This document shows positions 35,312 to 52,682 of a DNA stretch of 64,000 nt, in pieces. The position numbers and the translations under genes are program-made. This DNA is from Deltaproteobacteria bacterium (GTDB lineage Bacteria; Myxococcota; Myxococcia; SLRQ01): the NCBI GenBank assembly GCA_029210625.1, contig JARGFU010000016.1, positions 62,001-126,000 on the forward strand. Direction: 5' to 3'. The notes under the pieces are model-generated. The model was not told the DNA's origin. It was given only the letters and a program-made list of their open reading frames with translations, and did not search any database. Numbering within the stretch: the stretch's first letter is position 1; each line of letters begins with the position of its first letter.

Positions 35312-36793
35312 ATGGCCTACTGCTCCCGCTCCCCTCGCAGGCCGCCCGGCATTCCGTCCGGGTGTCTCCTCCTCCTGTTCGCGCTCTGGCCCGGGCTCTC
35401 CCGGGCCGAGGCGCCCGCGGACGAGCCCTCGCCGGCCGCCGCGGAGGAGACGGCCCTGGCCTCGCCCGGGCTGGTCTACTGGCTGACCGCCCGGCAGGGC
35501 TACCGCCTGCGGGACGCGCGCCCCGGCGATGAGGCCGCGGCCGATCCCCTGGCGCCCGTCGCGCCGGCGACCGATCAGGACCTGCACCTCGCCCTCGACG
35601 CCGGCCTCCTGAACGGCGCGGGGACCCTCGGCGCCGACCTGGCCCTGGGGGCCTGGCTGGACGCCGACGGGATCGCCGGCGATCCGGCGCCCCTGGCCTT
35701 CGCCTCGGTGCGGGACGGGGCAGCGGGCCGGGCGGCCAGCCTCTACCTCGCCTCGGTCTTCTACCGCCCCGGCGGCTGGCTGAAGGAGGTGCGGCTCGGC
35801 CGGATGAGCACCGGCTTCGGGACGCGCACCGTCTTCGACGGGGCCTCCCTCTCCCTGCTGCCCCTGCGCGGGCTGCGCAGCCCGGCGCTCGCGCGGCTCG
35901 AGCTCGTCGCCCTCGGCGGCCGCACCGCGCACCTCTACGAGCTCGACGGCGAGCACTTCGAGGACTGGCTCGGCGCGGTGGCCCTGCGCCTGCGGCCCCT
36001 GCGGGATCTGAAGCTCGCCCTGGACTACCGCCTGATGATCGAGGACTCGGCCAGCGCGGGGCTCGACCACGGCTACGGCCTCGAGGCGCAGTGGCGGATC
36101 AGTGACTTCCTCGGCGCCCGGCTCGAGGTGCGGGGGGTCGACGACGCGCTCTCCCGCCTCGCGCTGGCGGGGCGCTACTGGCACGAGGCCCTCGGCTTCG
36201 GGCTCGACGCCCGGATCGATCTGCAGCTCTCGACCCTGGAGGCCCTCAACGAGCGGGACGATCCCCTCTTCGCCATCCTCGGGCCGAGCCACCCCAACCT
36301 GCGCTGGGACCTCGACCTCTTCGAGGAGTTCGAGACCGGCCACGCGGACTACGTCCTCCACCTGGGCTGGCAGGGCCGGGAGCCCCTCGACGGGATCAGC
36401 GCCCCCTTCAACCGCCGCCAGGGCCGGCTCCACCTCACCGGCGACGCGCTCGAGCTGGTGATCCCGGGCCTGCAGGCCTCCCTCTCCCTCGAGTACCACC
36501 ACGACGGGGGCGACCTGGGCGAGGGCCTGCTGACCCTCGGCGGCGCCGCGGGCTACCGCTCCGAGGCGCTGCGCGGCCTCGGGGGCGAGCTCGGCAGCTA
36601 CTACCAGCGCTTCAAGTACGACTACTACGCGGACGTCGAGGAGCGGCAGGACGTGCGGACCTTCTTCGTCGCGGCCTTCGTCGACGCGCTCCCCTGGCTG
36701 GAGGTCCGCCTCCGCTACACCCTGGAGCACTTCGACCGCACCGCCCACTCCTTCCACTTCCTCCTCACCCAGCGCCTCGAGGGGGGACGGTGA
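35312..36793 (+). CDS. Outer-membrane beta-barrel protein, candidate porin of a porin-cytochrome conduit
   Basis: 493 residues with a signal peptide (LLLLFALWPGLSRAEA). The mature chain alternates polar and hydrophobic residues in many short strands, for example LKLALDYRLMIEDSA, LGARLEVRGVD and ASLSLEYHHDGG. It ends in a strand-like C-terminal segment (FHFLLTQRLEGGR). There are no Cys haem motifs. Size and fold fit the roughly 20-strand barrels that sheath cytochromes in Geobacter-type conduits. Its TGA overlaps the ATG of an 11-haem cytochrome, which overlaps in turn a lipoprotein multihaem cytochrome, and this arrangement is the main reason for the functional call. ATG 35312 is used because it immediately precedes the signal peptide. 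Confidence 0.75.
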   Translation: MAYCSRSPRRPPGIPSGCLLLLFALWPGLSRAEAPADEPSPAAAEETALASPGLVYWLTARQGYRLRDARPGDEAAADPLAPVAPATDQDLHLALDAGLLNGAGTLGADLALGAWLDADGIAGDPAPLAFASVRDGAAGRAASLYLASVFYRPGGWLKEVRLGRMSTGFGTRTVFDGASLSLLPLRGLRSPALARLELVALGGRTAHLYELDGEHFEDWLGAVALRLRPLRDLKLALDYRLMIEDSASAGLDHGYGLEAQWRISDFLGARLEVRGVDDALSRLALAGRYWHEALGFGLDARIDLQLSTLEALNERDDPLFAILGPSHPNLRWDLDLFEEFETGHADYVLHLGWQGREPLDGISAPFNRRQGRLHLTGDALELVIPGLQASLSLEYHHDGGDLGEGLLTLGGAAGYRSEALRGLGGELGSYYQRFKYDYYADVEERQDVRTFFVAAFVDALPWLEVRLRYTLEHFDRTAHSFHFLLTQRLEGGR

Positions 36794-37629
36794 TGCGAAC
36801 GACGCTCCTCCGGGCCCTCCTCCTGGCCCTCCTCCTCTCCGCCGGCCCCGGCCGGGCCGAGGAGGGGCCGGTCTTCTCCCACGCCGACCACATCGGCCGC
36901 GAGCCCGATGGGCCCTGTACGGCCTGCCACGCCGTCGAGGCGCCGAAGCCCACCCTGAAGGCGGAGCGCTGCATCTTCTGCCACGACGAGGACGACACCG
37001 CCCCCACGCGCTATCGCCTCCTCGACCGGGCGAAGCCGCTCCCCCTCGCGCTCCCCCACGAGCGCCACGCGAAGGAGGGCGACTGCCGGACCTGCCACGC
37101 CCGGACCGTCCGCGATCAGCTGGTGCAGGGCGAGGCCTTCATGCCCTCGTCGCTCTGCTTCGACTGCCACCAGGAGCGCCAGGTCGTCGCCGCCACCGAC
37201 CGCTGCGAGAGCTGCCACGGCGAGGGGAAGCGCCTGACGCCTCCGGCCGGTCACCGCGCGTCCAGCTGGATGCGGCGCCACGGGGAGGCCTCTCGCTGGA
37301 CCGGCGGGATCCACGGCGAGGACTGCGCCCTCTGCCACCGGGCCGACGCCTGCCAGACCTGCCATCAGCAGCGGGCGCCCGCCGATCACAACGGCCTCTG
37401 GCGCCTGCGCGGCCACGGCCGGGTGGCCGCCTGGGATCGGGAGGGCTGCAAGACCTGCCACGAGTCGGGGCAGTGCGTCGCCTGCCACCGCAGCACCCAG
37501 CCGCTCAACCACCAGGGCGCCTGGACCTCGCTCCACGGCGCCGTGGCCGGGGACCGGGAGAACCCCTCCTGCCTGACCTGCCACCGGCCGACCGCCTGCG
37601 TCGCCTGCCACGCGGGAGCCACGCCATGA
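36793..37629 (+). CDS. Periplasmic multihaem c-type cytochrome with 11 CXXCH sites
   Basis: About 278 residues with a cleavable signal (ALLLALLLSAGPGRA) and no lipobox. I count 11 CXXCH motifs: CTACH, CIFCH, CRTCH, CFDCH, CESCH, CALCH, CQTCH, CKTCH, CVACH, CLTCH and CVACH. That is one haem per 23 or so mature residues, a dense nanowire-like packing. Extra His residues (HADH, HERH, DHNG) can supply distal ligands. It should sit on the periplasmic side of the barrel encoded just upstream and pass electrons through it. ATG 36793 overlaps the barrel stop; a GTG one codon earlier is also possible. It overlaps the next cytochrome gene by four bases (ATGA). Confidence 0.93.
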   Translation: MRTTLLRALLLALLLSAGPGRAEEGPVFSHADHIGREPDGPCTACHAVEAPKPTLKAERCIFCHDEDDTAPTRYRLLDRAKPLPLALPHERHAKEGDCRTCHARTVRDQLVQGEAFMPSSLCFDCHQERQVVAATDRCESCHGEGKRLTPPAGHRASSWMRRHGEASRWTGGIHGEDCALCHRADACQTCHQQRAPADHNGLWRLRGHGRVAAWDREGCKTCHESGQCVACHRSTQPLNHQGAWTSLHGAVAGDRENPSCLTCHRPTACVACHAGATP

Positions 37630-40358
37630 GCGCGAAGATCACGAAGATCACGTGGGGTCCGCTGGGCGTGGGGCTCCTCCTCTTGCTGCTCTGCGCGGCC
37701 TGTGAGGGCGCGCCCCTCGCGGACGGGGTGCCCGACGATCTGAGCTGCTCCACCTGCCACGGGGGCCCCGAGAGCAGCGCGCCCCCCTCCGCCCTCTCCG
37801 GGGAGACCGCCACCGAGGCCATCGGGGTGGGCGCCCACCAGGCCCACCTCCAGGACGGCGCCATCCGGGCGGCCCTCCCTTGCGAGAGCTGCCACGTGGT
37901 GCCCGCCGAGATCGGCGCGGCCGGCCACGTCGATCCCCTCCCGGCCGAGGTGAGCTTCGAGGCCGGCCTGGACAAGGCGACCGGTCAGGGCACCTGGGAC
38001 CGGACCACCGCCACCTGCAGCGAGGTCTACTGCCACGGCGTGACCCTCGCGGGGGGGACCACCAAGACCCCGGTCTGGACCCTCGTGGACGGCTCCCAGA
38101 GCCAGTGCGGCAGCTGCCACGGCAACCCCCCGGTGACGCCCACCCACCCGGCGGCGAGCCAGTGCCACCTCTGCCACCGCGGGACGGTGGCCGCCGACGG
38201 CAGCATCGACGTCGCCGGCGGGATGCACATCGACGGCAAGCTCGACGTCGACGGCACCGCCTGCGACTCCTGCCACGGCGGGAGCGGCGAGCCCGCGCCG
38301 CCGCTGGACCTCGCGGGGAACACCGAGACCACCGCGCCCGGGGTCGGCGCCCACCGCGAGCACCTCGCCGCCTCGAGCTGGCACCGCACGATGATCTGCG
38401 ACGACTGCCACCTCGTGCCCGGGCAGATCGACGCGGCCGGGCACCTCGACACGCCGGCCCCGGCGGAGCTGACCTGGGCGGGGATCGCGATCGCCGACGG
38501 CGCGGCGCCCACCTACGATCGGACGACCGGCGCCTGCGCCGACGCCTACTGCCACGGCGGCACCCTGAAGCTCGGGCCGGGCACGGTGCCGGCCCCGGTC
38601 TGGACCGTGGTGGACGACAGCCAGGATGCCTGCGGCGCCTGCCACGGGGTGCCGCCGGGCGGCAGCCACCCCCCCGTCTCGCCCACCGAGTGCGGCAGCT
38701 GCCACCCCTGGAGCGGGCTGACCCCCGACGATCCGGCCACCCACATCGACGGCAAGGTCGACCTCGCCTCCATGGCCTGCGACGCCTGCCACGGCGGCGG
38801 CGGGGTCGCCGCGCCGCCCCTCGATCTCTCGGGCAACGTCGCGAAGAGCGAGCCCGGGGTCGGCGCCCACCGGGAGCACCTGGCCTCCTCGGTCTGGCAC
38901 CGCACGATGGCCTGCGACGACTGCCACCTCGTGCCGCAGGCCGTCGGCGATCCGGGGCACCTCGACACCCCCCCGCCGGCCGAGCTCACCTGGGCCGGGA
39001 TCGCCGTGGCCGGGGGCGCGGCGCCCGTCTACGATCCGGTGACCGGCCGCTGCAGCGACACCTACTGCCACGGCGCCACCCTCCCCACCGGCCCGGGCAC
39101 CGTGCCCGCGCCGACCTGGACCACGGTGGACGGAAGCCAGGACGCCTGCGGCACCTGTCACGGCTTGCCGCCGGGCGGGGTGCATCCCACCCTCCAGAGC
39201 TTCGAGTGCGGCCCCTGCCACACCTTCAACGGCCTGAACCCGGCGGATCCCACGACCCACGTCGACGGCAAGATCGACGTCCTCTACTGCGACGGCTGCC
39301 ACGGCTTCCCCCCGGCGACCGGCGCGCACCCGCTCCACGTGGGCGACGCGGACGCCACGAGCTGGGCGAGCTACGGCGGCCTGCTCCACGCCGCCGACGT
39401 GCGGGCCGGCGCGGCGACCTACCTCTTCGACTGCGGCCAGTGCCACCCGCGCGACGTGGCGCGGCACGCCGACGGCACCGTCGACGTGGAGGTCGGCTCG
39501 ACCGGTGTCCCCGGGGGCACCCTGCGCTCCCTCTCGACGCCGACGGCGAGCTACACCGGCGGGGTCTGCCGCGAGGTCTACTGCCACTCGACCGGCCAGG
39601 AGACCCCGGCCTACGTCGACTCGCCGCCCTGGACCGGCGGCTTCACCGGCCCGCGCTGCGCGAGCTGCCACGAGAACCCACCCTCCTACGCCAGCGGCGG
39701 CGCGGGCACGGCGACGGCGAACACCCACCTCCAGATCGCCGACGACGGCGTCGAGTACGGGCACTTCGGGGGCCTGCCGGGCCCCTGGCACACGAGCTAC
39801 CACGGCGGCGGCAGCCCGGGCGACGCGGCCTCGCCGCTGACCTGCCAGACCTGCCACTACGACACGGTCGATCCCGCGGCGGTGGGGCCCGGCGGCTTCT
39901 ACTGGCTGAACACCTCCGGCAGCTACGAGCGCGGCTCGGGCCACTGGATGGACTGCACCCGCTGCCACACCGGCGCCGGCGGCGCGCCGGCGCAGGGGGT
40001 CGGAGGCGTCCAGCCGGCGGCCCACGTCAACGGCGTGCGCGACGTGGTCTTCGAGCAGCGCACCTCGATCCCCGCGGGCACCCCGGGGATCCCCGCGGCA
40101 CCCAACCGGCCGACCTACCCGACCTGGGTCACCGCCGCCCCCAGCGCCGCGGATCGGCCGCCGGGCTCGGTCGTCGACGGGATCACCTGGTCGGTGGACC
40201 TGACCCTCTCGACCTACGATCCCGCCGACAAGAGCTGCCAGAACGTCGGCTGCCACATCCTCCAGTCCTTCGGGACCGGCATGGCCCAGTACGAGCCGCT
40301 GCAGTGGGGGGTGACGCCCGTCGGCTGGTCGACCTGCAACGCCTGCCACCAGAACTGA
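37626..40358 (+). CDS. Outer-membrane lipoprotein multihaem cytochrome with CXXCH and CXXXXCH sites
   Basis: 910 residues. The lipobox is LLCAACEG, so the mature protein is lipid-anchored and probably on the outer face. I count 18 CXXCH and five CXXXXCH motifs (CSEVYCH, CADAYCH, CSDTYCH, CREVYCH, CQNVGCH), 23 candidate haem sites. The alternation of the two types matches the Geobacter CxxxxCH...CXXCH domain family. Three internal modules are near-copies (GVGAHREHLA..WHRTM.CDDCHLVP... LDTP.PAELTWAGIA), so the protein grew by duplication. It would be the terminal outer cytochrome of the conduit. ATG 37626 overlaps the preceding TGA. Haem attachment at CX4CH needs suitable cytochrome c maturation genes, which are not in the window. 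Confidence 0.93.
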   Translation: MSAKITKITWGPLGVGLLLLLLCAACEGAPLADGVPDDLSCSTCHGGPESSAPPSALSGETATEAIGVGAHQAHLQDGAIRAALPCESCHVVPAEIGAAGHVDPLPAEVSFEAGLDKATGQGTWDRTTATCSEVYCHGVTLAGGTTKTPVWTLVDGSQSQCGSCHGNPPVTPTHPAASQCHLCHRGTVAADGSIDVAGGMHIDGKLDVDGTACDSCHGGSGEPAPPLDLAGNTETTAPGVGAHREHLAASSWHRTMICDDCHLVPGQIDAAGHLDTPAPAELTWAGIAIADGAAPTYDRTTGACADAYCHGGTLKLGPGTVPAPVWTVVDDSQDACGACHGVPPGGSHPPVSPTECGSCHPWSGLTPDDPATHIDGKVDLASMACDACHGGGGVAAPPLDLSGNVAKSEPGVGAHREHLASSVWHRTMACDDCHLVPQAVGDPGHLDTPPPAELTWAGIAVAGGAAPVYDPVTGRCSDTYCHGATLPTGPGTVPAPTWTTVDGSQDACGTCHGLPPGGVHPTLQSFECGPCHTFNGLNPADPTTHVDGKIDVLYCDGCHGFPPATGAHPLHVGDADATSWASYGGLLHAADVRAGAATYLFDCGQCHPRDVARHADGTVDVEVGSTGVPGGTLRSLSTPTASYTGGVCREVYCHSTGQETPAYVDSPPWTGGFTGPRCASCHENPPSYASGGAGTATANTHLQIADDGVEYGHFGGLPGPWHTSYHGGGSPGDAASPLTCQTCHYDTVDPAAVGPGGFYWLNTSGSYERGSGHWMDCTRCHTGAGGAPAQGVGGVQPAAHVNGVRDVVFEQRTSIPAGTPGIPAAPNRPTYPTWVTAAPSAADRPPGSVVDGITWSVDLTLSTYDPADKSCQNVGCHILQSFGTGMAQYEPLQWGVTPVGWSTCNACHQN

Positions 40359-42075: not shown

Positions 42076-43773
42076 ATGGGAATGTACGAGGAATCACTAC
42101 GCCACTTCCTGAAGCCCATCGGGGAGTTCCTGGACGACCCCAAGGTCTCCGAGATCATGATCAACGGTCCCGAGGAGATCTGGATCGAGAAGGGGGGCAA
42201 CCTCACCCTCACCCAGGCCAAGTTCACCAACGAGGGACTCGAGGCCGCCGCCCGGAACATGGCGCAGTTCGTCGGCCGGATCCTCGACGACGAGCGGCCC
42301 CGCCTCGACGCCCGGCTGCCGGACGGCTCGCGGATCCACATCGTGATGCCGCCGATCGCCCGCAAGGGCTGCACCATCGCCATCCGGAAGTTCTTCCCGG
42401 ACAAGCTGACGGTGGCGAACCTCGTGCAGTTCGGCTCGATGTCGCCGGCCATGGCGAACTTCATCGACGCCTGCGTGCAGCTGAAGGAGAACGTCATCGT
42501 CTCGGGGGGTACCGGCTCCGGCAAGACCACCATGCTCAACTGCGTGGCGGCCTACATCCACGATGAAGAACGCATCATCACCATCGAGGATTCCGCCGAG
42601 CTGCAGATGAACCAGGAGCACCTCGTGCCCTTCGAGTCGCGGCCGCCGGACAAGTTCGGCAAGGGCAAGGTGGACATGGGCGATCTGCTCCAGTCCTCCC
42701 TGCGGCTGCGCCCCGACCGGATCGTCGTCGGCGAGGTCCGCGGCGGCGAGGCCTTCCACCTGATGCAGGCGATGAACACCGGCCACGGCGGCTCCCTGGC
42801 CACCGTCCACGCCAACACGCCCACCGACACCCTGCGGCGCCTCGAGTCCCTCTGCCTCCAGAGCGGCATCGACCTGCCGATGGTGGCGGTCCGCGCCCAG
42901 GTGGCCTCGGCCATCAACATCACGCTCTGCTGCGCCCGCCTCTCCGATGGCTCTCGGCGCACCACCCACATCTCCGAGGTGCTGCCCCTCAACGAGAAGG
43001 GCGACTACCGCACCCAGGACATCTTCGTCTTCACCCAGACCCACAAGGACGCCGACGGGAAGATCCACGGCTACCACTCGCCCACCGGGCTGATCCCGAC
43101 CTTCTTCGAGCAGCTCAAGGCCTTCGGCTTCGGCTACATGGACGAGGAGTTCTTCGATCCGGCGACCTACGGTCAGGTGCCGCCCCCGAGCTTCGTGGGC
43201 GCGGGCTTCAAGCCCCGCTGGTCCCCCAGCCTCAAGCACCGCGAGGAGGGGCTGCCCGATCCCGAGCACAACCCCGTCGCCGACGCGCTGCGCGAGAAGG
43301 GGAAGACGCGCGAGATCATCGTGCGCACCGGCATGGAGGGCAAGGAGCCGCCCAAGCCGATGGCGCCCCCGAAGGCCGAGGCCACCGACCTGGGCGACGA
43401 CGCGGACGCGGCCCCGGCGGCGGCCACCCCGCCTCCACCCGAGGACGAGTACGACGAGCCCTCCACCCGGATCGGCGCGGCGCCGGCGGCGGTGAAGGCC
43501 CAGGCCCGGGGCGACGAGCTCGGCGCGGCCGTGCCGGCCACCGCCGAGAAGGAGGAGTCCACCGACCCCGGCGCCGACGACGCGCCGGTCGGCCTCTCCG
43601 ACGAGGAGGCGGCCATCGCCGCGGCCCTCGCCGCGGCCGAGGCGGCCGAACAGCCCTCGATCCAGCTCGCCGACGACTTCGCCGAGGAGGCGAAGGCCTA
43701 CGAGGATCAATCCTCCAATGGGCCGGAGGGGCGGCCCCGGCGCAGGCGCGGGGGGACGATCGGCCGCAAGTAG
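42076..43773 (+). CDS. CpaF/TadA-type secretion ATPase with long acidic C-terminal tail
   Basis: 565 residues. The first 370 form a CpaF-family hexameric ATPase that powers Tad/Flp pilus or type II-like secretion: VSEIMINGPEEIWIEKGG, Walker A GGTGSGKTT (about 144-152), the acidic IEDSAELQM box, LRPDRIVVGEVRGGEAFHLMQAMNTGHGG (Walker B region) and HANTPTDTLRRLE. The C-terminal 190 residues are Ala/Glu/Asp/Pro-rich and probably disordered. No pilin, TadB/C or secretin gene is adjacent, so the ATPase is an orphan here; myxobacteria have several such solitary CpaF paralogues. The gene ends before a convergent repeat-containing intergenic region. Confidence 0.92.
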   Translation: MGMYEESLRHFLKPIGEFLDDPKVSEIMINGPEEIWIEKGGNLTLTQAKFTNEGLEAAARNMAQFVGRILDDERPRLDARLPDGSRIHIVMPPIARKGCTIAIRKFFPDKLTVANLVQFGSMSPAMANFIDACVQLKENVIVSGGTGSGKTTMLNCVAAYIHDEERIITIEDSAELQMNQEHLVPFESRPPDKFGKGKVDMGDLLQSSLRLRPDRIVVGEVRGGEAFHLMQAMNTGHGGSLATVHANTPTDTLRRLESLCLQSGIDLPMVAVRAQVASAINITLCCARLSDGSRRTTHISEVLPLNEKGDYRTQDIFVFTQTHKDADGKIHGYHSPTGLIPTFFEQLKAFGFGYMDEEFFDPATYGQVPPPSFVGAGFKPRWSPSLKHREEGLPDPEHNPVADALREKGKTREIIVRTGMEGKEPPKPMAPPKAEATDLGDDADAAPAAATPPPPEDEYDEPSTRIGAAPAAVKAQARGDELGAAVPATAEKEESTDPGADDAPVGLSDEEAAIAAALAAAEAAEQPSIQLADDFAEEAKAYEDQSSNGPEGRPRRRRGGTIGRK

Positions 43774-43903: not shown

Positions 43904-45031
43904 CTACTGCGAGGCGCGGACCTCTGCACACGAGATCCCCTCATCCGGCGCGCAGTTCTTCCCGATGACGCAGCCGCCGATCCCGTCGATGTTCACGCAG
44001 GAGAGCTGCCCGCGGCACTGATCCCCGCCGAGCTGGCAGGGCGCGCGGGTCATCCCGCAGGAGCGGGTGGTGGTGTCGCAGGTGTCCTGGGGGCAGTCGG
44101 TGTCCTGCACGCAGGAGCAGAAGCCCGTGCCCGAGGCGCCGCCCTCGTGGCCGATGCAGCGGCCGGCGCACTGGCCGATGGTCTCGCCCGCGGCGATGGC
44201 GCAGCGGCCGCCGGGGCACTCGTCGTCGGTGGTGCAGCTGGCGCCGGTGGGGGCGCAGTCCTCGTCCCGGCCGCAGAGGCTCTGGGTGAGGATCACCACG
44301 AAGTGGCAGTCGAAGCCGTTGGGGCAGGGCTGATCGTTGCTGCAGTCGACCCCGCAGAAGGAGGCCCGCCCGCCCGGGACCGAGGTGTCGACCAGGCAGT
44401 AGTTGCCCGGGTCGTCGCAGAGGGAGAGGCCCGAGCCCGCCGAGAGCTGGCACTGCTCGCAGTAGGGGCCGCGGGTGTCGTCGACGCAGACCGTGTCCTC
44501 CTCGACGGCGTCGTACTCGCAGAGCTGCACGTAGTCGCAGAAGCTCTGGTCGTCGCAGAGGCCGGCCTTGCACCGGCCCACGTCGCACTCGGGGTCGTCC
44601 ACCGGGCAGCGGCAGACCTGGGCGAGCGGGCAGTCGCCGTTGACCCGGCAGCCCGGCTCGCAGCGGAAGGTCACCAGGTTGCAGAGGGTGCCGATGGGGC
44701 AGTGGATGTCCGAGGTGCAGTGGCTCTCCTCGATGCACTGGTTCTGGGCCGTGTCGCAGAAGTTCTCGCTCGGGCACTCGGCGTTGGTCTCGCAGCCCAC
44801 CCGCGGCTGGCAGGTGCCCGCCTGGTTGCAGAAGGCGTCCGAGCCGCAGGCGGCGTCGGTGGTGCAGAGGCAGACCTTCGGCTTGAACTTGTCGGAGCAG
44901 ACGAAGCCGTCGCCGTTCTCGGCCACGCACTGGGCGTCGTCGACGCAGCCGCCGACCAGGTCGGGGTCGTTGGGGCAGCCGGCCGAGAGGAGGAGCAGGC
45001 CGAGGCAGGCGGTGAGGATCGAGCGCATCAT
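43904..45031 (-). CDS. Cys-rich surface lipoprotein (Dickkopf-N-like repeats)
   Basis: 375 residues. The lipobox is clear (LGLLLLSAGCPN). The mature protein is packed with short disulphide-type modules of the form C..D..C......C (GCVDDAQCV, ACGSDAFCNQAGTCQ, ECPSENFCDTAQNQCI, DCPQDTCDTTTRSCG), as seen in many myxobacterial surface proteins. They presumably form small disulphide-stabilised knots that bind ligands or other surface proteins. It is the last gene of a five-gene operon; ATG 45031 overlaps the preceding TGA (ATGATG). Function unknown. Confidence 0.8.
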   Translation of the reverse strand: MMRSILTACLGLLLLSAGCPNDPDLVGGCVDDAQCVAENGDGFVCSDKFKPKVCLCTTDAACGSDAFCNQAGTCQPRVGCETNAECPSENFCDTAQNQCIEESHCTSDIHCPIGTLCNLVTFRCEPGCRVNGDCPLAQVCRCPVDDPECDVGRCKAGLCDDQSFCDYVQLCEYDAVEEDTVCVDDTRGPYCEQCQLSAGSGLSLCDDPGNYCLVDTSVPGGRASFCGVDCSNDQPCPNGFDCHFVVILTQSLCGRDEDCAPTGASCTTDDECPGGRCAIAAGETIGQCAGRCIGHEGGASGTGFCSCVQDTDCPQDTCDTTTRSCGMTRAPCQLGGDQCRGQLSCVNIDGIGGCVIGKNCAPDEGISCAEVRASQ

Positions 45032-48000
45032 GGAACGACGAAGATCTGGCTATCGAGGGTGAAGGAGTTCCAGGAGAGCGCCGAGAGCTGCGAGTAGGAG
45101 AAGTGGTCGTAGTCGAAGCGCGGCGAGAGCGCGGTGGTCGCGGTGATCTGCAGCATCGGCGACTGGCGCAGGACGGTGAGCACCTGCTCGGGCACCTCCA
45201 CCGAGGTCTCCGAGCCCGGCAGGATGATCGACCAGAGGGGCTTGGGCACGAAGCCGGGCTCCTCGACGTCGATCTGCACCAGGTCGGGCTCGGGGCTGCC
45301 GTCGTAGGCCCACTGCACCCGGCCCCCCACCAGGCTGCCGCCGGGGACCGGCGAGATGAAGTGGGTCATCGGCTGCATCGGCCCGAGGTCCACGCCGAGG
45401 GCGAGGTCGCCGATCTGCCGGCGGAAGTAGAGGGAGAGGGGGTAGCCGCCGCCGCTGGTCGCCATGTCGAGGAAGACGAAGCCGTCGCCGGGCAGGCGAG
45501 GGTGGCGGGGGAAGTCGAAGCGGTCACTCTGGTTGACCACCTCGCCGACGTAGACCGTGCCCTCGCCGCCGAGCTCCAGGTAGGAGTAGGTGACGTGGAT
45601 GGCGCCGGCGGCCGGCTGGGGCGCGTTGACCAGGCGGATCGGGACGTCGAGGTCCATGTGCATGGAGAGGATGACGTCCGCCTCCAGGGGAGGCTGGCAG
45701 CCGCCGGCCGCGTTGCAGAACTCGCCGGTGCCGCAGGCCGCGTCGACCTGGCAGAGGCAGTAGCCGAAGTCGTTCGGGTTCTCCGGGTCGAACTCCGACT
45801 TGCCGCAGGCGAAGCCGCCCGGGCAGGCCTGGTTCGGGGTGCAGACCGGCGGCACGATCGCGGGCACCTCCAGCCCCCGGGTGATGCCCATCAGGTGGGG
45901 CTCGAAGCTGTCGAGGGTCTCCCCGGTGGTGGGATCGATCTCGGTGGAGGCCACCCCGTAGAAGGCGTAGACCGCGACGTTCCCGGCCCGCGAGGCCATG
46001 GTGAAGGTGCCGCAGTCCTGGCTGACCACCTGGAAGCTGGGCGGGAAGCCGAAGGGGGGCAGGTAGAAGGAGCTGCGCGAGGTGATGTAGACCCGCGCCT
46101 CCTCGCGCTCGCCGGGCATCAGCGCCCGGTTCGGCGGGAGCTTGAAGCCGCAGACCCGGCCGAGGGAGCCGTCCTCGCCCGAGCCGCCCACGAAGGCCGG
46201 CGGCGCGAAGACCGGCGGCGGCCCCGGCTCACCCTCGTTCGGGGTGATGAAGATCGTCAGGTCGCGGGTGTCGACCCGGCTGACCGTCGTCGAGGCGAAG
46301 CCGGCCGCGCTGGCGGTGACGTCGGTGGCCTTCACCAGCGAGGGATCCGAGAAGGTGATCTGGCCGCGGGTGTCGGTGAGCCCCTGGAAGGGGGTGGTGG
46401 GATCCGCCCCGAGGATCACGAAGGCGTCCTGCACGGGCAGGCCGGCCATCGAGTCGAGGACGGTGATGTTCAGGGTGCCGGCCATCGGGCCGCCCGAGGC
46501 GCCGCCCCGCAGGTTCGTGGGGTCGTAGTACTGGAAGGCGTCGGGGAGGAGGGCCGGGCCGGCGCCCTCGCTCACGCTCACGTCGACCAGCCCCGGCGCG
46601 CCCGGGGGGCTGCGCACGGTGAGGATGGCGTCGCCGAGGAGCGCCTCGACCGTGGCGGTGCGCAGGCCGAAGGTGACCTGCGAGCCGGTGGTGAAGCCGC
46701 TGCCGTAGAGGGAGACCAGGGTCCCGCCGGCCTGGGCCCCGCGCTCGGGCTCGACCCGGGAGAGGTCCAGCGCTCCCTGGTAGGTGAAGCCGCCGGCCAG
46801 CACGCCCTCGAGGCGATCGAGGCCGCTGCCCAGGCCCACCACGACGTCCGACGCGCCCGGGCTGCCCGCCGCGGTGGTCGCGGTGAGGGTGTTCGCGTCG
46901 ACCACCACCAGATCGGTGACCGGCAGGGCGCCGATGCGCAGGTCGACGCCGGCCGCGAAGCCGCTGCCGGTGATCGTCACCGGGGTGCCGCCGGTGTCCG
47001 GGCCGGTGACCGGATCGATGGCCGAGACCACGACGGCCTCGTAGTAGGTGAGCGCGCCGGGGAGGAGGGCGCCGCCGCGGTCGTTGCGCACCTGCACGTC
47101 CACCGGGCCGACGGCCGCGCCGGCGGGCACGGTCGCGCGCAGGCGGTTGCCGTCGACGAGGGTGACGCCGGTGGCGGGCAGGCCACCGAAGGTCACCTGG
47201 GGCGCGGGCCGATCGAGGCCGGTGCCGATCAGCTCGACCTCGGTCCCCCCGGCCAGGGGCGCCCGCCGCGGCTGCACCGCCAGCAGGGAGAGGCTCCGGT
47301 CGGAGGGGTCGACGTAGGTGAAGGCCCCGGGGATCGTGAGGTCGCCGCGGGGGTGCTGGAGGGTGAGGTCCACCACGCTGCCGGCGGCGCCCGCCGGGGT
47401 GGTGACGAGGAGGGTGGTGTCGCCGATGGCGGTCAGGCCGGTGGCCGGCGCGCCGCCGAGGAGGACGCCGGTGGTGCCGGTGAGGCCCGCGCCCTCGAGC
47501 TGGACGACGGTCCCGCCCGTGCTGCGGCCCACCGGGGGCGCCAGGCGGTCGACCCTCGGCGCGACGAAGTAGTGGAGCGAGCGCCGGAGGGTGGCCCGGC
47601 CGTTCTCGTTGAAGACCACCACGTCCACCGGGCCGGGGCCGGCGGCCGGCGGCGCGATGAAGGTCAGCAGGCGGGGATCCTGCACCTGCACGTCGATGGC
47701 CGAGCGATCGCCGACCAGGACCCGGCTGCCGGGGACCAGGCCGTCACCGGAGAGGGCGAGGAGCGCGCCGCCGCTGACCGGCGACTCTCCGGGGGCCAGG
47801 GAGTCGGCCCGCACGGGGGTGTAGTAGGTGTAGCAACCCTCACAGCGGGCCTCGCCGTTGGGGTTCTGCACCACGATGTCCCGGGCGCCGACCAGCCCCG
47901 GAGGGGCGAAGACCTCGAGGGTGTCGTCGTCCACCACCGTGAACTCGATGGCGGTGTTCGAGCCGAAGAGCACGGCGGTCTGGGACTCGACCCCCTCCCC

Positions 48001-48327
48001 GAGGCGGGCGAAGGGGAAGACGAAGCCGCGGCCGGAGAGGGTGACGCGGTTGCCGCCGGCCGAGGGGCCGCGGGCGGGCATCACCCGGTCGATCTGGAAG
48101 GGCGGCGGACCGGCGTCGGTGCCGCCGTCGTCGCCGCCGTCCGGCATCCCGCCGTCGTCGCCGCCGTCGGGCAGCCCACCGTCGTCGCCGCCGTCCGGCG
48201 TCCCGCCGTCCACCGTGGCGTCCGGGTTGCCGCCGTCGGTCTTGCCGCCGCCGCAGTCACCGCAGCCGCCGAGGGCGAGGCCGAGGAGGAGGGCGAGGGA
48301 GAGGGTCGGGAGGGTGTGAAGCTTCAT
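45028..48327 (-). CDS. Large surface lipoprotein with six IPT/TIG repeats
   Basis: 1099 residues. The lipobox is LGLALGGCGD. A low-complexity Gly/Asp/Pro linker follows (nine-residue PDGGDDGGx units, encoded at 48124-48204). Six IPT/TIG Ig-like repeats each open with the pattern P..G...GG..V.L.G.G. (VMPARGPSAGGNRVTLSG, VDRLAPPVGRSTGGTVVQLE, LSRVEPERGAQAGGTLVSLY). A carboxypeptidase-regulatory-like domain comes next (GTLNITVLDSMAGLPVQDAF), then a Cys-rich segment (NQACPGGFACGKS, AACGTGEFCNAAGGCQ) and a final unrecognised beta-rich domain. It is probably an adhesin or scaffold on the cell surface. ATG 48327 overlaps the upstream TGA (ATGA). Confidence 0.85.
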   Translation of the reverse strand: MKLHTLPTLSLALLLGLALGGCGDCGGGKTDGGNPDATVDGGTPDGGDDGGLPDGGDDGGMPDGGDDGGTDAGPPPFQIDRVMPARGPSAGGNRVTLSGRGFVFPFARLGEGVESQTAVLFGSNTAIEFTVVDDDTLEVFAPPGLVGARDIVVQNPNGEARCEGCYTYYTPVRADSLAPGESPVSGGALLALSGDGLVPGSRVLVGDRSAIDVQVQDPRLLTFIAPPAAGPGPVDVVVFNENGRATLRRSLHYFVAPRVDRLAPPVGRSTGGTVVQLEGAGLTGTTGVLLGGAPATGLTAIGDTTLLVTTPAGAAGSVVDLTLQHPRGDLTIPGAFTYVDPSDRSLSLLAVQPRRAPLAGGTEVELIGTGLDRPAPQVTFGGLPATGVTLVDGNRLRATVPAGAAVGPVDVQVRNDRGGALLPGALTYYEAVVVSAIDPVTGPDTGGTPVTITGSGFAAGVDLRIGALPVTDLVVVDANTLTATTAAGSPGASDVVVGLGSGLDRLEGVLAGGFTYQGALDLSRVEPERGAQAGGTLVSLYGSGFTTGSQVTFGLRTATVEALLGDAILTVRSPPGAPGLVDVSVSEGAGPALLPDAFQYYDPTNLRGGASGGPMAGTLNITVLDSMAGLPVQDAFVILGADPTTPFQGLTDTRGQITFSDPSLVKATDVTASAAGFASTTVSRVDTRDLTIFITPNEGEPGPPPVFAPPAFVGGSGEDGSLGRVCGFKLPPNRALMPGEREEARVYITSRSSFYLPPFGFPPSFQVVSQDCGTFTMASRAGNVAVYAFYGVASTEIDPTTGETLDSFEPHLMGITRGLEVPAIVPPVCTPNQACPGGFACGKSEFDPENPNDFGYCLCQVDAACGTGEFCNAAGGCQPPLEADVILSMHMDLDVPIRLVNAPQPAAGAIHVTYSYLELGGEGTVYVGEVVNQSDRFDFPRHPRLPGDGFVFLDMATSGGGYPLSLYFRRQIGDLALGVDLGPMQPMTHFISPVPGGSLVGGRVQWAYDGSPEPDLVQIDVEEPGFVPKPLWSIILPGSETSVEVPEQVLTVLRQSPMLQITATTALSPRFDYDHFSYSQLSALSWNSFTLDSQIFVVP
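48124..48204. repeat. Three tandem 27-bp units in the IPT/TIG lipoprotein gene
   Basis: Units 48124-48150, 48151-48177 and 48178-48204 differ at a few positions. Each encodes nine residues of a Gly/Asp-rich linker (PDGGDDGG plus Leu, Met or Thr). Such repeats can change copy number by slippage, altering linker length. Confidence 0.85.
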
Positions 48328-49838
48328 TGGATCACCCATTCGAGATCGTAGGCCGCCTCGCTGCGCGCGGAGCCCGTCACCTGGATGAAGGCCCGCCCGG
48401 CGCTGGTGGTGGTGAGGTTCACCACCTCCTCGGGGTCGGCGGTGGCCGAGCGGCCCAGGAGGGTCACGCCGTCGGAGTCGAAGACCGAGAGGTCGAGGTC
48501 GCCCTCCAGCGGGTCGTGCTGGAGGCGGACGGTGCCGCTGCGGCCGCGCTCGAGGAGGACCTCGTACCAGTCGTCGTTGCTGGCGCAGCGCTGCAGGTTG
48601 AAGAGGGAGCCGGGCTGGAGCAGGGTCGCCGCCGTGAAGCCGTCGTTGGGCTCGTTGCCGTCGTCCTCGCAGGGGATGCCCCGGGAGACGAGGAGCTGGA
48701 TGCTGTAGGTGCCCCGCAGGTCGGTGGCCGTCACCAGGAGGGGGTGGTCCCCGGTGACCGCGGCGATGAAGTCCAGCTGGAGGTTGCCGGTGGCGATGAC
48801 GCTGGTGCCGGTGGGATCGAAGGCGCGGGCCGAGTAGTTCGAGCCCGAGAGGGCCGGGGGGTTCACCGTCAGGCTGACCCGGTCCCCGGCGCCGAGGGAG
48901 ACGAGGTAATGGTCGTCCTCCTGGTTGCAGAGGGTCAGGTTGGAGATCAGCCCGGGCGAGACCGGGGCGGCCTCGCTGATGAGGTCGTTGGGCTCGAGGG
49001 CGTCCGGCAGGCACTCGGCGTCGACGCAGAGCCCCGAGCGGATCTCACAGACCTCGGTGGGCAGGCAGTCGTCGTTCGAGACGCAGGGCGGCGGCTCGTC
49101 GGTGCACTGGCCGGTGGCCCGGTTGCAGACCAGGGGGCGGACGCAGTCGCGGTCGGTGAAGCAGGTGGCCTGGGCGGCGCAGCGGCCGGCCAGCAGATCG
49201 CAGGTCAGCCCCGTGCCGCAGTCGGCGTCCGCGGAGCACTCGACGCAGCGGCCGCTCACGCAGTTCCAGGCGTCCGGGCAGATCTCGAGCTCGGTCTCGG
49301 CGGTGCAGGCCTGCCGGCAGGTGTTGGTGCCCAGGTCGCAGTAGGTGCCCGCCGCGCAGGCGCCGTCGCTGAAGCAGCCGGTGTCCAGCTCGCAGACCAG
49401 GGTCTGCTCGTTGCAGCGCTCGTCGGCCTCGCAGTCGGTGTCGTTGCCGCAGGCCCGCACGGTCCCGCACTCGGGGTCGCCCGCCGGCAGGCGGCAGAGC
49501 CCCTGGACGCAGAACTCGCCGAGGGCGCAGTCGCCGTGGGCCTCGCAGTCGCCGCCGAAGCAGGGGATGAACTCGCAGCGGTGGATCACCGGGTTGCACA
49601 GCTCGGTGCCCAGGCACTGGCGGTCCCGCAGGCAGTCCTCGCAGAAGCCCTCCACGCAGACCCGCCCGTCCTCGCAGCCGGTGCGGTCGGTGCAGGGGAT
49701 GCCGGCGTCGACACCGGCGTCGGGGCCGGCGTCGAGGCCTCCGTCGGCGTTCCCATTCCCCCTGGGACACCCGGCGGAGAAGCCGAGCACGAGGACGAGC
49801 ACGTGCACGGGTACGAGGAGGTGGAGGGCGCGGGACAT
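48324..49838 (-). CDS. Cys-rich surface lipoprotein with two PPC-type domains
   Basis: 504 residues. The lipobox is VLGFSAGCPR. An Asp/Gly/Ala linker leads into about 220 residues of Cys-rich modules (GCEDGRVCVEGFCEDC, DGACAAGTYCDLGTNTC, DADCGTGLTCDLLAGRC). Two pre-peptidase C-terminal-like beta domains follow, each opening with an EPND motif (DALEPNDLISEAAPV and DGNEPNDGFTAATLL) and containing DDHYLVSL or DDWYEVLL. PPC domains are usually accessory binding domains of secreted enzymes; no catalytic domain is present here. Its ATG 49838 overlaps the previous stop by one base, and its own stop overlaps the next ATG by four. Confidence 0.83.
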   Translation of the reverse strand: MSRALHLLVPVHVLVLVLGFSAGCPRGNGNADGGLDAGPDAGVDAGIPCTDRTGCEDGRVCVEGFCEDCLRDRQCLGTELCNPVIHRCEFIPCFGGDCEAHGDCALGEFCVQGLCRLPAGDPECGTVRACGNDTDCEADERCNEQTLVCELDTGCFSDGACAAGTYCDLGTNTCRQACTAETELEICPDAWNCVSGRCVECSADADCGTGLTCDLLAGRCAAQATCFTDRDCVRPLVCNRATGQCTDEPPPCVSNDDCLPTEVCEIRSGLCVDAECLPDALEPNDLISEAAPVSPGLISNLTLCNQEDDHYLVSLGAGDRVSLTVNPPALSGSNYSARAFDPTGTSVIATGNLQLDFIAAVTGDHPLLVTATDLRGTYSIQLLVSRGIPCEDDGNEPNDGFTAATLLQPGSLFNLQRCASNDDWYEVLLERGRSGTVRLQHDPLEGDLDLSVFDSDGVTLLGRSATADPEEVVNLTTTSAGRAFIQVTGSARSEAAYDLEWVIQ

Positions 49839-51307
49839 CAGTAGGCCACCAGCTGATCGACGGCGGTGACCTCACCGCCGGGCCACGCGACCTCGCCCAC
49901 CTGCCAGAGGACCTGGTCGGTCACCATCGTGCGGGTGAACTCGGCGGCGATGATCCCGTACTCGTAGACCCGCAGGGTCACGTCGCTCGAGGGGTTGGCG
50001 GCGCCGTTGTCCTTCACGAAGTCGACGACGATCGCGTAGGTGCCAGGCCCCGGATCGGGGAAGGTCACGATCTCCGGACCGAAGCCGGCGAGGTCGTCCC
50101 GGGAGAGGTAGGGGTCGTCCGCGGGGTCGCCCGCCACCCCGAAGTCGGGGTTCGGGTTGCCCCAGTAGCAGTCGCCGGGGCTGCCCACCGAGGCGCCGGT
50201 CTCGAGGAAGTGCAGGTCGAAGTCGGTCTGGGGGTGGTTCCAGACCAGCTCGACGTAGAGCTTCTCGGCGGGCACCGAGCGGATCTTGGTGCGGCAGCAG
50301 TCGAGGGAGGGCACGCCCAGGGCGTCGGTGACGCACAAGCCCACCTCCCAGAGGCCGGGCACGTCCAGCTCGAGGGAGGTGGTGGGGCCGGTGGTGTCCG
50401 AGAGGTCGGTGTTGCTGTTCACCGGCCGCTGCTCCACCTGCCACTGGTAGGTGACCGGCTCGTGGCCGTCCGGGTCGCTGGAGGCCGAGCCGTCGAGGGT
50501 GATCACGTCGCCGGGCGCGCCCAGCAGCTCCTCGCCGGAGCATGAGGGGGTCGGGGCGTGGTTGACCTCCCCCTCCAGCGAGACCTCGACGGTGCGGTTG
50601 AGGGGGTCGGTGGAGGTGATGCGGATGGTCCCGGTGGTGCCGGGCCGCTCGGGAGAGGGCGAGAAGCCCACCGAGAGGGGGATGCTCGCGCCCGCGGCGA
50701 GGGTGCCCGAGCCCCAGGAGCCCACCGGGATGAAGGCGATGGAGGAGCCCTCGACCAGCTCGACCGACTCGACGATCAGGGGGGCGCTGCCCACCGAGCG
50801 GATCTCGAAGCCCTCGACGGCGGTGAGGCCCTCGCCCACCAGGCCGAAGTGGATGGCGGCGGGCTCGACCTCGATGGCCGCGATGGTGTCGCCGACGCCG
50901 AAGAGGGTGATCACCGCCGTGCCCTCGGTCTCGTCGTTGGTCGCGACGGTGAGGGTGGCGGTGTAGGAGCGCTCCTCCTCGGGCCGGAAGCGGACGACGA
51001 TCTCGTCCTCGTTGCCGAAGGGGATGGCCTCGGCGGGCTGCGCCTCGACCCAGTAGAAGGCGGCGTCGTCACCGCCGATCTCCAGGGAGGTGATCTCGAG
51101 GCCGGCCTGGCCCCGGTTCTTCACCACCAGCACCTGCTCGCCGACGTTGAGCACCGGCAGGCGCCCGAAGTCGAGGCGGTCGACCTCGATGAGCAGATCC
51201 GGGCGGACCCGGCCCAGGTCGTCGGGGCCGCAGGCCAGGGCGCCGGCGGCGAGGGGGGCGAGACAGAGCAGGCTCGCGAGGAGCAGGTTTCGCATCGACG
51301 AGGTCAT
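49838..51307 (-). CDS. Surface lipoprotein with ASH/hydin-type and PKD-like beta domains
   Basis: 489 residues. The signal ends LAAGALACGPD. Two ASPM-SPD2-hydin-like (choice-of-anchor-D) Ig domains follow: LDFGRLPVLNVGEQVLVVKN and IHFGLVGEGLTAVEGFEIRS. A PKD-like unit comes next (DVITLDGSASSDPDGHEPVTYQWQV), then a C-terminal domain of a kind found after PKD in myxobacterial proteins (LVWNHPQTDFDLHFLE). There is no catalytic signature. ATG 51307 overlaps the upstream TGA (TGATG); Met 51295 directly before the signal peptide is an alternative start. Second gene of the operon, likely a structural surface component. Confidence 0.8.
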   Translation of the reverse strand: MTSSMRNLLLASLLCLAPLAAGALACGPDDLGRVRPDLLIEVDRLDFGRLPVLNVGEQVLVVKNRGQAGLEITSLEIGGDDAAFYWVEAQPAEAIPFGNEDEIVVRFRPEEERSYTATLTVATNDETEGTAVITLFGVGDTIAAIEVEPAAIHFGLVGEGLTAVEGFEIRSVGSAPLIVESVELVEGSSIAFIPVGSWGSGTLAAGASIPLSVGFSPSPERPGTTGTIRITSTDPLNRTVEVSLEGEVNHAPTPSCSGEELLGAPGDVITLDGSASSDPDGHEPVTYQWQVEQRPVNSNTDLSDTTGPTTSLELDVPGLWEVGLCVTDALGVPSLDCCRTKIRSVPAEKLYVELVWNHPQTDFDLHFLETGASVGSPGDCYWGNPNPDFGVAGDPADDPYLSRDDLAGFGPEIVTFPDPGPGTYAIVVDFVKDNGAANPSSDVTLRVYEYGIIAAEFTRTMVTDQVLWQVGEVAWPGGEVTAVDQLVAY

Positions 51308-52449
51308 CAGCGGGTCAGGGGATCCTTGGGCTGGAGGTAGATCACCTCGACGGTGGCCTTCAGCGGCGGCACCGAGGAGCCCATGAAGAAGATGGAGTTG
51401 GTCTCGCTCTCGTAGACCCAGCCGTCGTTGGGGCCCTCGGGCGGCGTGCAGAAGAAGTCCTGGTCCTCGGCGCGGGAGGCGCCGCAGCTGTCCTGCACCT
51501 CGCCGCACTCGCCCAGGTCGGCGGGGATCTCGTCGCAGTCGAAGTGGAGGTAGACCTCGATCGTGTCGGGGTCGGGCTCGTAGGAGAGGAAGAACTTCCG
51601 CTTGAGGCCGACCGCCTTCGCGCCGAGGGCGTCGAGGGTGTCGGCGAAGGAGGCGTCGCAGATCGAGCCGAAGATCCCGCCGGTCTCCTCGGTGAGGAGG
51701 GCGTAGCGGTCGCCGGGGGAGGCGACGCCGGCCGTCGAGGAGCAGCCCCCGCCCTCGCCGCTCACGGGGTCGTTGGGCGGGCCGATGATCGCCGAGAGGC
51801 TCACGGTGTCCTCGTTGCCGATGCCCTTGAGCTGCTCGAAGACCCGCCAGTAGTAGCGCAGCTCTCCGAAGGAGTGGTCGTCCTCGTCGGAGACGAAGAT
51901 CACGAAGAGGTGGGCGTCCTCCCGGACGAAGCCGGGGTTCTGGCCCCCCAGGGCCAGCTCGGCGGCCTGCAGGCCCTGCTCCTGGGCCCGGCCGGTGATC
52001 CCCACCCGGATGTTCTGCTGGAAGGCGGTGAAGACGTCGGGGGTGGTGGGGGAGAGGAGGGTCGGGCTGCCCACCAGCCTCCCCGCGTTGCTCACCGCGT
52101 CGGTGGTGGTGACGCCGATCTGGTAGTCGACGTCACCCTCGTCGAGGAAGCGGTGGAAGGAGGAGAGGTTGTCCGCCAGGTTCTGCTGCTCCTCGGTCAT
52201 CGAGGCCGAGTCGTCGATCACCCAGAGGATGTCGATGCGGGAGACCTCGGCCTGGGCGAAGGTGTCGATGATCGCCCCCGGCGGCAGGGCCCGCGAGAGG
52301 GAGGGATCGTCGCAGCGGCAGCCCCCCACCGCCAGGAAGGCGAGGAGGAGGGCGGTCAGCAGACGCCTCCCGGAGGAAGCATGACAGAGGTGGCTCAAGA
52401 CGGACCCCCGACCAAGAGAAGAACGAGCCTGTGGCCCCAGCGGATTCAT
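51307..52449 (-). CDS. von Willebrand factor A-domain lipoprotein
   Basis: 380 residues as drawn. The lipobox lies at LLLAFLAVGGC (Cys44). A vWA domain covers about 72-280 with an intact metal-ion-dependent adhesion site, D79-x-S81-x-S83 in WVIDDSASM, plus LFVIFVSDEDDHS. Such domains bind partners through a divalent cation. The C-terminal 80 residues contain several Cys (CDEIP, CGEVQDSCG). ATG 52449 is nearly overlapped by its own candidate promoter, so translation may begin downstream, for example at TTG 52398, which would leave a more normal signal peptide. First gene of the surface lipoprotein operon. Confidence 0.8.
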   Translation of the reverse strand: MNPLGPQARSSLGRGSVLSHLCHASSGRRLLTALLLAFLAVGGCRCDDPSLSRALPPGAIIDTFAQAEVSRIDILWVIDDSASMTEEQQNLADNLSSFHRFLDEGDVDYQIGVTTTDAVSNAGRLVGSPTLLSPTTPDVFTAFQQNIRVGITGRAQEQGLQAAELALGGQNPGFVREDAHLFVIFVSDEDDHSFGELRYYWRVFEQLKGIGNEDTVSLSAIIGPPNDPVSGEGGGCSSTAGVASPGDRYALLTEETGGIFGSICDASFADTLDALGAKAVGLKRKFFLSYEPDPDTIEVYLHFDCDEIPADLGECGEVQDSCGASRAEDQDFFCTPPEGPNDGWVYESETNSIFFMGSSVPPLKATVEVIYLQPKDPLTR

Positions 52450-52482: not shown

Positions 52483-52682
52483 TCGCGGGTGATCCTCAAG
52501 CAGTAGCAACGAGCGTGCCGCCTCGCCGCGACCGAAAGAGGCAGTGTAACCCACTGAAATCAGGTTTGCGAGGTGCGGCCTCTCCGGCGCGGCCGTCCAC
52601 GGGCGATCACCCCCCTGACGCCCCGATCAGGGATTTTCGTGGCGGTCGCCCGCCGGCCCCCTCCGCGGCCGGGGAGCCCCGC

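Follow-up and report, generated by a model that had tools for sequence, protein, structure and literature searches.

Bd0875 of Bdellovibrio, a lipobox protein with a MIDAS, is described as important for prey invasion, and after its deletion 10.1% of prey bdelloplasts were reported to be rounded but without a predator (PMC11003981). A vWA surface lipoprotein of Myxococcus, CglB, is reported to serve as a gliding adhesin and to be held by the Glt complex (PMC12282271, PMC13104615). Here we analyzed a cassette of five genes (52449-43904, minus strand) within a 64,000-nucleotide stretch of DNA from a deltaproteobacterium, and this whole stretch is called the window below. G1 to G5 denote the five cassette genes, while three-digit numbers (e.g. 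G047) denote genomes and L numbers denote stretches of DNA.

The protein encoded by G1 resembles Bd0875 and Bd1483 in its lipobox and in the DxSxS motif within its vWA fold, and its model, in which beta strands from both termini lie to either side of the vWA/MIDAS domain, may point to a similar placement of that domain. It was matched by NF052240, a model of a Bdellovibrio MIDAS adhesin which, judging from its name, models Bd0875/Bd1483 themselves, with an E value of 2.4e-18 but at 66.4 bits against a cut-off of 700. In addition, G1 heads five coupled lipoprotein genes, whereas the available text on Bd0875 names no such partners (PMC11003981). The cassette shares with CglB and CglD the lipoprotein character and the phylum, the comparison with CglB being made by its published description only. 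The model of CglD, NF033765, matched G1 at 31.5 bits against a cut-off of 400, and this weak match fits the vWA domain that CglD presumably carries. With integrin I domains, G1 shares the fold of a ligand-binding domain and the DxSxS motif, a likeness of fold for which no membership is claimed. The Kil/Tad pilus tips are likewise described as contact-dependent surface machinery of myxobacteria (PMC12075869), but the cassette proteins have lipoprotein-like signals and are not pilins, and the linkage to TadA proved to be untied to the cassette.

No name for the conserved five-gene set appeared among the family-library matches, and no paper on it was found in the open-licence literature, which does not prove that none exists; to this extent the earlier statement that no named system has this set holds. 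The domains themselves are already known, and the set, so far without a name, is akin to the vWA surface lipoprotein adhesins. With roughly even confidence, we propose that the five genes form a translationally coupled operon whose lipid-anchored outer-membrane products act jointly as a surface attachment or recognition complex.

Five overlapping lipoprotein genes and their conservation

An earlier note on the window, made from the sequence alone, had listed a minus-strand set of vWA, ASH/PKD, Cys-rich/PPC, IPT/TIG and Cys-rich lipoproteins with an overlap at every junction. The open reading frames were recovered at the positions it gave, and all four junctions do overlap (Table 1). Third-position GC is 0.96-0.99 in each of the five genes. 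By eye, every protein begins with a hydrophobic stretch that ends in a lipobox-like cysteine (AVGGC, GALAC, FSAGC, ALGGC and LSAGC for G1 to G5), in agreement with the lipoprotein-like signals that the note had seen on all of them. An automatic test found a signal peptide plus cysteine in 157 of 180 cassette proteins, and the 23 missed proteins showed by eye a hydrophobic stretch ending in cysteine, unusual in one case.

Table 1 Positions of the cassette genes, their junctions and neighbouring features in the window
Feature	Position	Strand	Description
G1	51307..52449	minus	lipoprotein, 380 aa; integrin I-like vWA domain with metal motif DDSAS
G2	49838..51307	minus	lipoprotein, 489 aa; two ASH/choice-of-anchor D stretches and PKD
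G3	48324..49838	minus	lipoprotein, 504 aa; Cys-rich repeats and PPC-like domain
G4	45028..48327	minus	lipoprotein, 1099 aa; acidic Asp/Gly spacer and six IPT/TIG stretches
G5	43904..45031	minus	Cys-rich lipoprotein, 375 aa
G1/G2 junction	51305..51309	minus	TGATG, overlap 1 base
G2/G3 junction	49836..49840	minus	TGATG, overlap 1 base
G3/G4 junction	48324..48327	minus	ATGA, overlap 4 bases
G4/G5 junction	45028..45031	minus	ATGATG, overlap 4 bases (1 base with the second ATG as start)
Sigma-54-like site	52505-52520	minus	upstream of G1
TadA-like ATPase	42076-43773	plus	convergent, downstream of the cassette
CxxCH-rich pair	36790-40358	plus	two adjoining open reading frames with 11 and 18 CxxCH motifs

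A near-perfect sigma-54-like site, CGGCACGCTCGTTGCT (score 21/22), lies upstream of G1 in the window. Across 38 of the 39 sequences (one was left out as too short), such a site reached a shuffle p <= 0.05 in four, the window included, where about two are expected by chance, and a sigma-54 promoter was rejected as not conserved in the relatives.

To describe the cassette beyond the window, 58 genomes, its own included, were compared. Homologues of G1 and G2 adjoin in 12 of the 57 relatives; all five genes follow in order in 11 of these 12, and in the remaining one the contig breaks off within G4. Of the 47 junctions in these relatives, 39 retain the start/stop overlap. When named genomes were searched with the G5 profile, 62 loci were obtained, and the full cassette was found in named Myxococcus, Pyxidicoccus and Hyalangium, among them Myxococcus eversor, Pyxidicoccus caerfyrddinensis and Hyalangium versicolor. 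When 54 stretches were pooled (L059 was left out since it lies on the same contig as L047), 36 distinct ones showed the full five-gene order on one strand, seven were duplicates and 11 were incomplete. At least seven of the incomplete stretches are cut by a contig end, L072 has G4 split over two frames, and G3 could not be recovered as a single frame in L075. Two stretches, both with long flanks, are genuine exceptions: L080, with G5 only, and L090, with G4 and G5 only. The synteny that the note had proposed to look for is thus present in relatives.

The overlap is kept at 128 of 164 cassette junctions in the pooled stretches. By a rougher count, six of the 16 remaining closely spaced same-strand pairs of the window overlap as well, and nine of 66 pairs in the flanks. 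Four overlaps out of four in a single genome are therefore only suggestive, but the share over the relatives is far higher, and it is this persistence that is remarkable. Protein distances correlate at r 0.94-0.96 for the ten pairs among G1-G5, calculated without a control gene, as is expected for genes inherited as a block. From these data, the five genes constitute one conserved operon of probable envelope lipoproteins.

Variation was also seen at single loci. In L060, a second G4-like gene (11158-14490) follows immediately after G5, and L106 is a complete cassette in a metagenome-assembled genome whose record title gives sheep colon.

Domains, deeper families and the question of joint action

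In G2, ASH/choice-of-anchor D and PKD scored above curated cut-offs, and the C-terminal part (about residues 345-489) is conserved without a Pfam match. The six TIG stretches of G4 also scored above the curated cut-off; its C-terminus is beta-rich, and the model of it shows a transthyretin-like domain together with loose multi-Ig matches. The PPC domain and Cys repeats of G3 lie just under their cut-offs, with 41 cysteines invariant in 13 sequences. For G5, the family-library scan gave nothing above any curated cut-off, while 51 cysteines are invariant in 12 sequences. No enzyme family scored above cut-off in the five proteins in these scans. The model of the TraA outer membrane exchange receptor, NF033759, matched G3 at 8.8 bits (E 0.52), under its cut-off of 750.

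ASH, TIG, PKD, PPC and Cys repeats are modules often found in surface proteins, which would suit five lipoproteins that are co-expressed and act separately, for instance as components of a surface coat, a matrix or a spore envelope, so that the operon would mean common timing and not assembly. The distribution of the genes over the phylum bears on this explanation from both sides. Among 195 genomes, G5 occurs in 97, the G4 C-terminus in 81 and G3 in 89. G3 and the G4 C-terminus are found together in 80 of the 90 genomes with either, G3 alone in nine and the G4 C-terminus alone in one. Within the class of the window, the G4 C-terminus occurs in 53 genomes; 46 of them have G3, G4 and G5 collinear in a span of no more than 9 kb, and in the other seven at least one listed match to the three lies on another contig. 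In family f11, outside this class, the full set is present in seven of eight stretches, the eighth being cut, and G5 is doubled in six of the eight. Genomes of family f10 (2.9-3.0 Mb) also keep cassette homologues.

In the deep families, by contrast with the near relatives, 11 of 12 stretches around G4 lack homologues of G1, G3 and G5; one of the twelve, L136, contains a weak match resembling G2, at 42 bits, and another, L134, spans no more than 3.8 kb. Apart from G4 itself, no family was common to more than two of these 12 neighbourhoods. In G182 and G183, whose assemblies comprise about 30 and about 20 contigs, the matches to G3, G4 and G5 are each on a contig of their own. The lone G4 genes and the deep homologues of G3 and G5 on other contigs speak for separate action. 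Against it, gene order and start/stop coupling are maintained across several families, and even where dispersed, members of the G3, G4 and G5 families are for the most part found together in a genome, though shared ancestry could explain part of this. We consider separate action possible but rather unlikely.

The dispersal of genes in relatives, which the note had named as the finding that would speak against its proposal, is therefore absent among near relatives and present in the deep families for G4. Given the G4 genes without partners and the G3, G4 and G5 genes on separate contigs, a fixed complex of all five proteins is not required everywhere; of the tight coupling that the note had suggested, the single conserved operon stands.

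Ten deep-family stretches (L091, L092, L093, L095, L096, L102, L103, L104, L107 and L132) have a vWA gene followed by at least one G5-like Cys-rich gene, with none of G2 to G4 between. One reading of this arrangement is that the vWA and Cys-rich genes may be the older core, which the other three genes would have joined later. No match to G3, the G4 C-terminus or G5 was found in the listed genomes of family f3, and most Myxococcaceae genomes among the 57 relatives have no adjoining G1-G2 pair, which indicates that the group can do without the cassette.

The G1 fold, its metal site and the neighbouring genes

The Pfam vWA model matched G1 with an E value of only 0.14, far under its cut-off, which fits the absence of G1 from the 16 places given by a Pfam VWA search of its own genome. 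A PDB sequence profile search with G1 found no real relative, its two weak matches having E values of 0.17 and 0.32. The predicted vWA domain rests on the NF052240 match together with a structure model. In the AlphaFold model (mean pLDDT 82), residues 70-284 were placed by VIA-align on an integrin I domain with a Z of 15.9, 184 aligned residues and an rmsd of 3.3. Foldseek ranked integrin beta subunits highest, at low TM-scores of 0.28-0.39, and identity to the structural matches is 9-19% over the 50 matches listed, non-integrins included. In the model, strands 60-65 and 298-371 stand to either side of the domain and may together make up a small beta domain from both termini, into which the vWA domain would be inserted; those at the C-terminus carry invariant cysteines. 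Intracellular vWA proteins align as well, TFIIH chains at Z 14-15, so the fold of G1 alone gives no proof of adhesion.

The metal motif DxSx[ST] is intact in 36 of 39 G1 sequences, that of the window included, and broken in L048, L057 and L089. Metal binding by G1 is accordingly predicted as likely in most members and dispensable in a few; of the metal-dependent vWA adhesion site put forward in the note, the motif is present in the majority and lost in these three.

Both the fold and the lost motifs could also suit a periplasm-facing module of envelope assembly or stress, in which the vWA protein would be a protein-protein adaptor and not an adhesin. The BatB vWA structure aligns with G1 at Z 14.6, and the operon of the window, like that of one relative, stands divergent to genes that we take, from their sequence and order, to be hrcA, grpE, dnaK and dnaJ. 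However, apart from the window, only L047/L059, a single contig, showed this putative heat-shock neighbourhood, and the rod-like repeats, together with the lengthy acidic spacer in G4, would better fit a reach beyond the membrane. A periplasmic adaptor is, in our judgement, improbable.

Downstream of the cassette, the window has a convergent TadA-like ATPase gene, which was matched by TIGR03819 at 285 bits, under the cut-off of 373, and by Pfam T2SSE above cut-off; no other Tad genes were recognised beside it. A TadA-like gene occupies the same convergent position in six of 41 neighbour-compared stretches, in more than one family, these 41 including at least one duplicate pair (L053/L071). A distant TadA copy is present in all 16 genomes searched, and a close one (54-100% identity) in 15 of them. 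The latter include G009, G011 and G030, which have no listed neighbouring G1-G2 pair, while G047 has the cassette and only the distant copy, and the six Myxococcaceae genomes that have the pair carry their close copy on another contig or far off. As its presence is independent of the cassette, TadA is better seen as an old chromosomal address than as a partner, and it was rejected as the latter. That the cassette is an accessory to a Tad/Kil-type pilus powered by this ATPase, an idea encouraged by the recurrent convergent gene and by the killing tips reported on Myxococcus Tad pili (PMC12075869), is thus highly improbable, with TadA, the one Tad component considered, showing no tie to the presence of the cassette and with lipoprotein-like signals on all five proteins.

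In 12 of the 41 stretches, a gene near the cassette encodes a small, His-rich protein that bears a signal peptide and is absent from the window. This gene lies on the strand of the cassette and starts within about 110 bases after G5 in ten of the 12 (L055, L064-L068, L075, L079, L087 and L105), standing further away in L063 and L070; it could be a lineage-specific sixth gene of the operon. When the flanks were read without a family-library scan, nothing beside the cassette was recognised as a partner for secretion or flipping. The CxxCH-rich pair of the window (Table 1) probably encodes multihaem cytochromes and perhaps an extracellular electron conduit.

A candidate surface complex and its meaning

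Computation gives the conserved operon, the lipoprotein-like signals, the co-inheritance, the I-domain fold and the mostly conserved metal motif. An I-domain head, TIG/ASH rods and disulfide-rich partners fit the attachment or recognition complex proposed above. In such a complex, the metal-dependent, integrin I-like domain of G1, mounted on a small beta domain, would act as the head that binds the ligand. The beta sandwiches of G2 and G4 would serve as rods providing reach, with G3 and G5 as partners stiffened by disulfides, and G1 and G5 would be the oldest core. We infer that the proteins may be located at the outer membrane or surface, touch one another and bind a partner cell, the matrix or another protein. 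Counted against the surface complex are the MIDAS broken in three of 39 sequences, the deep G4 genes without partners, the partial sets of L080 and L090, the vWA folds of intracellular machines such as TFIIH, the absence of G1 from the Pfam VWA search of its genome, and the failure to recognise a secretion or flipping partner in the flanks as read.

A bolder idea, which we consider possible but less likely than not, is that the cassette encodes an ancient myxobacterial receptor complex, a bacterial counterpart of the integrin adhesion unit with a metal-gated I-domain head. Its lipid-anchored stack of Ig-like and disulfide-rich partners, made together, would grip prey, kin or matrix.

The cassette offers a small, defined and conserved target, five genes in named hosts, for the study of myxobacterial contact with other cells and with surfaces. 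In the accounts available, the vWA adhesins of predatory bacteria have so far been treated singly, as with Bd0875 (PMC11003981), or within a motility machine, as with CglB (PMC12282271, PMC13104615). A free-standing operon would reveal the partner lipoproteins that such vWA heads may need.
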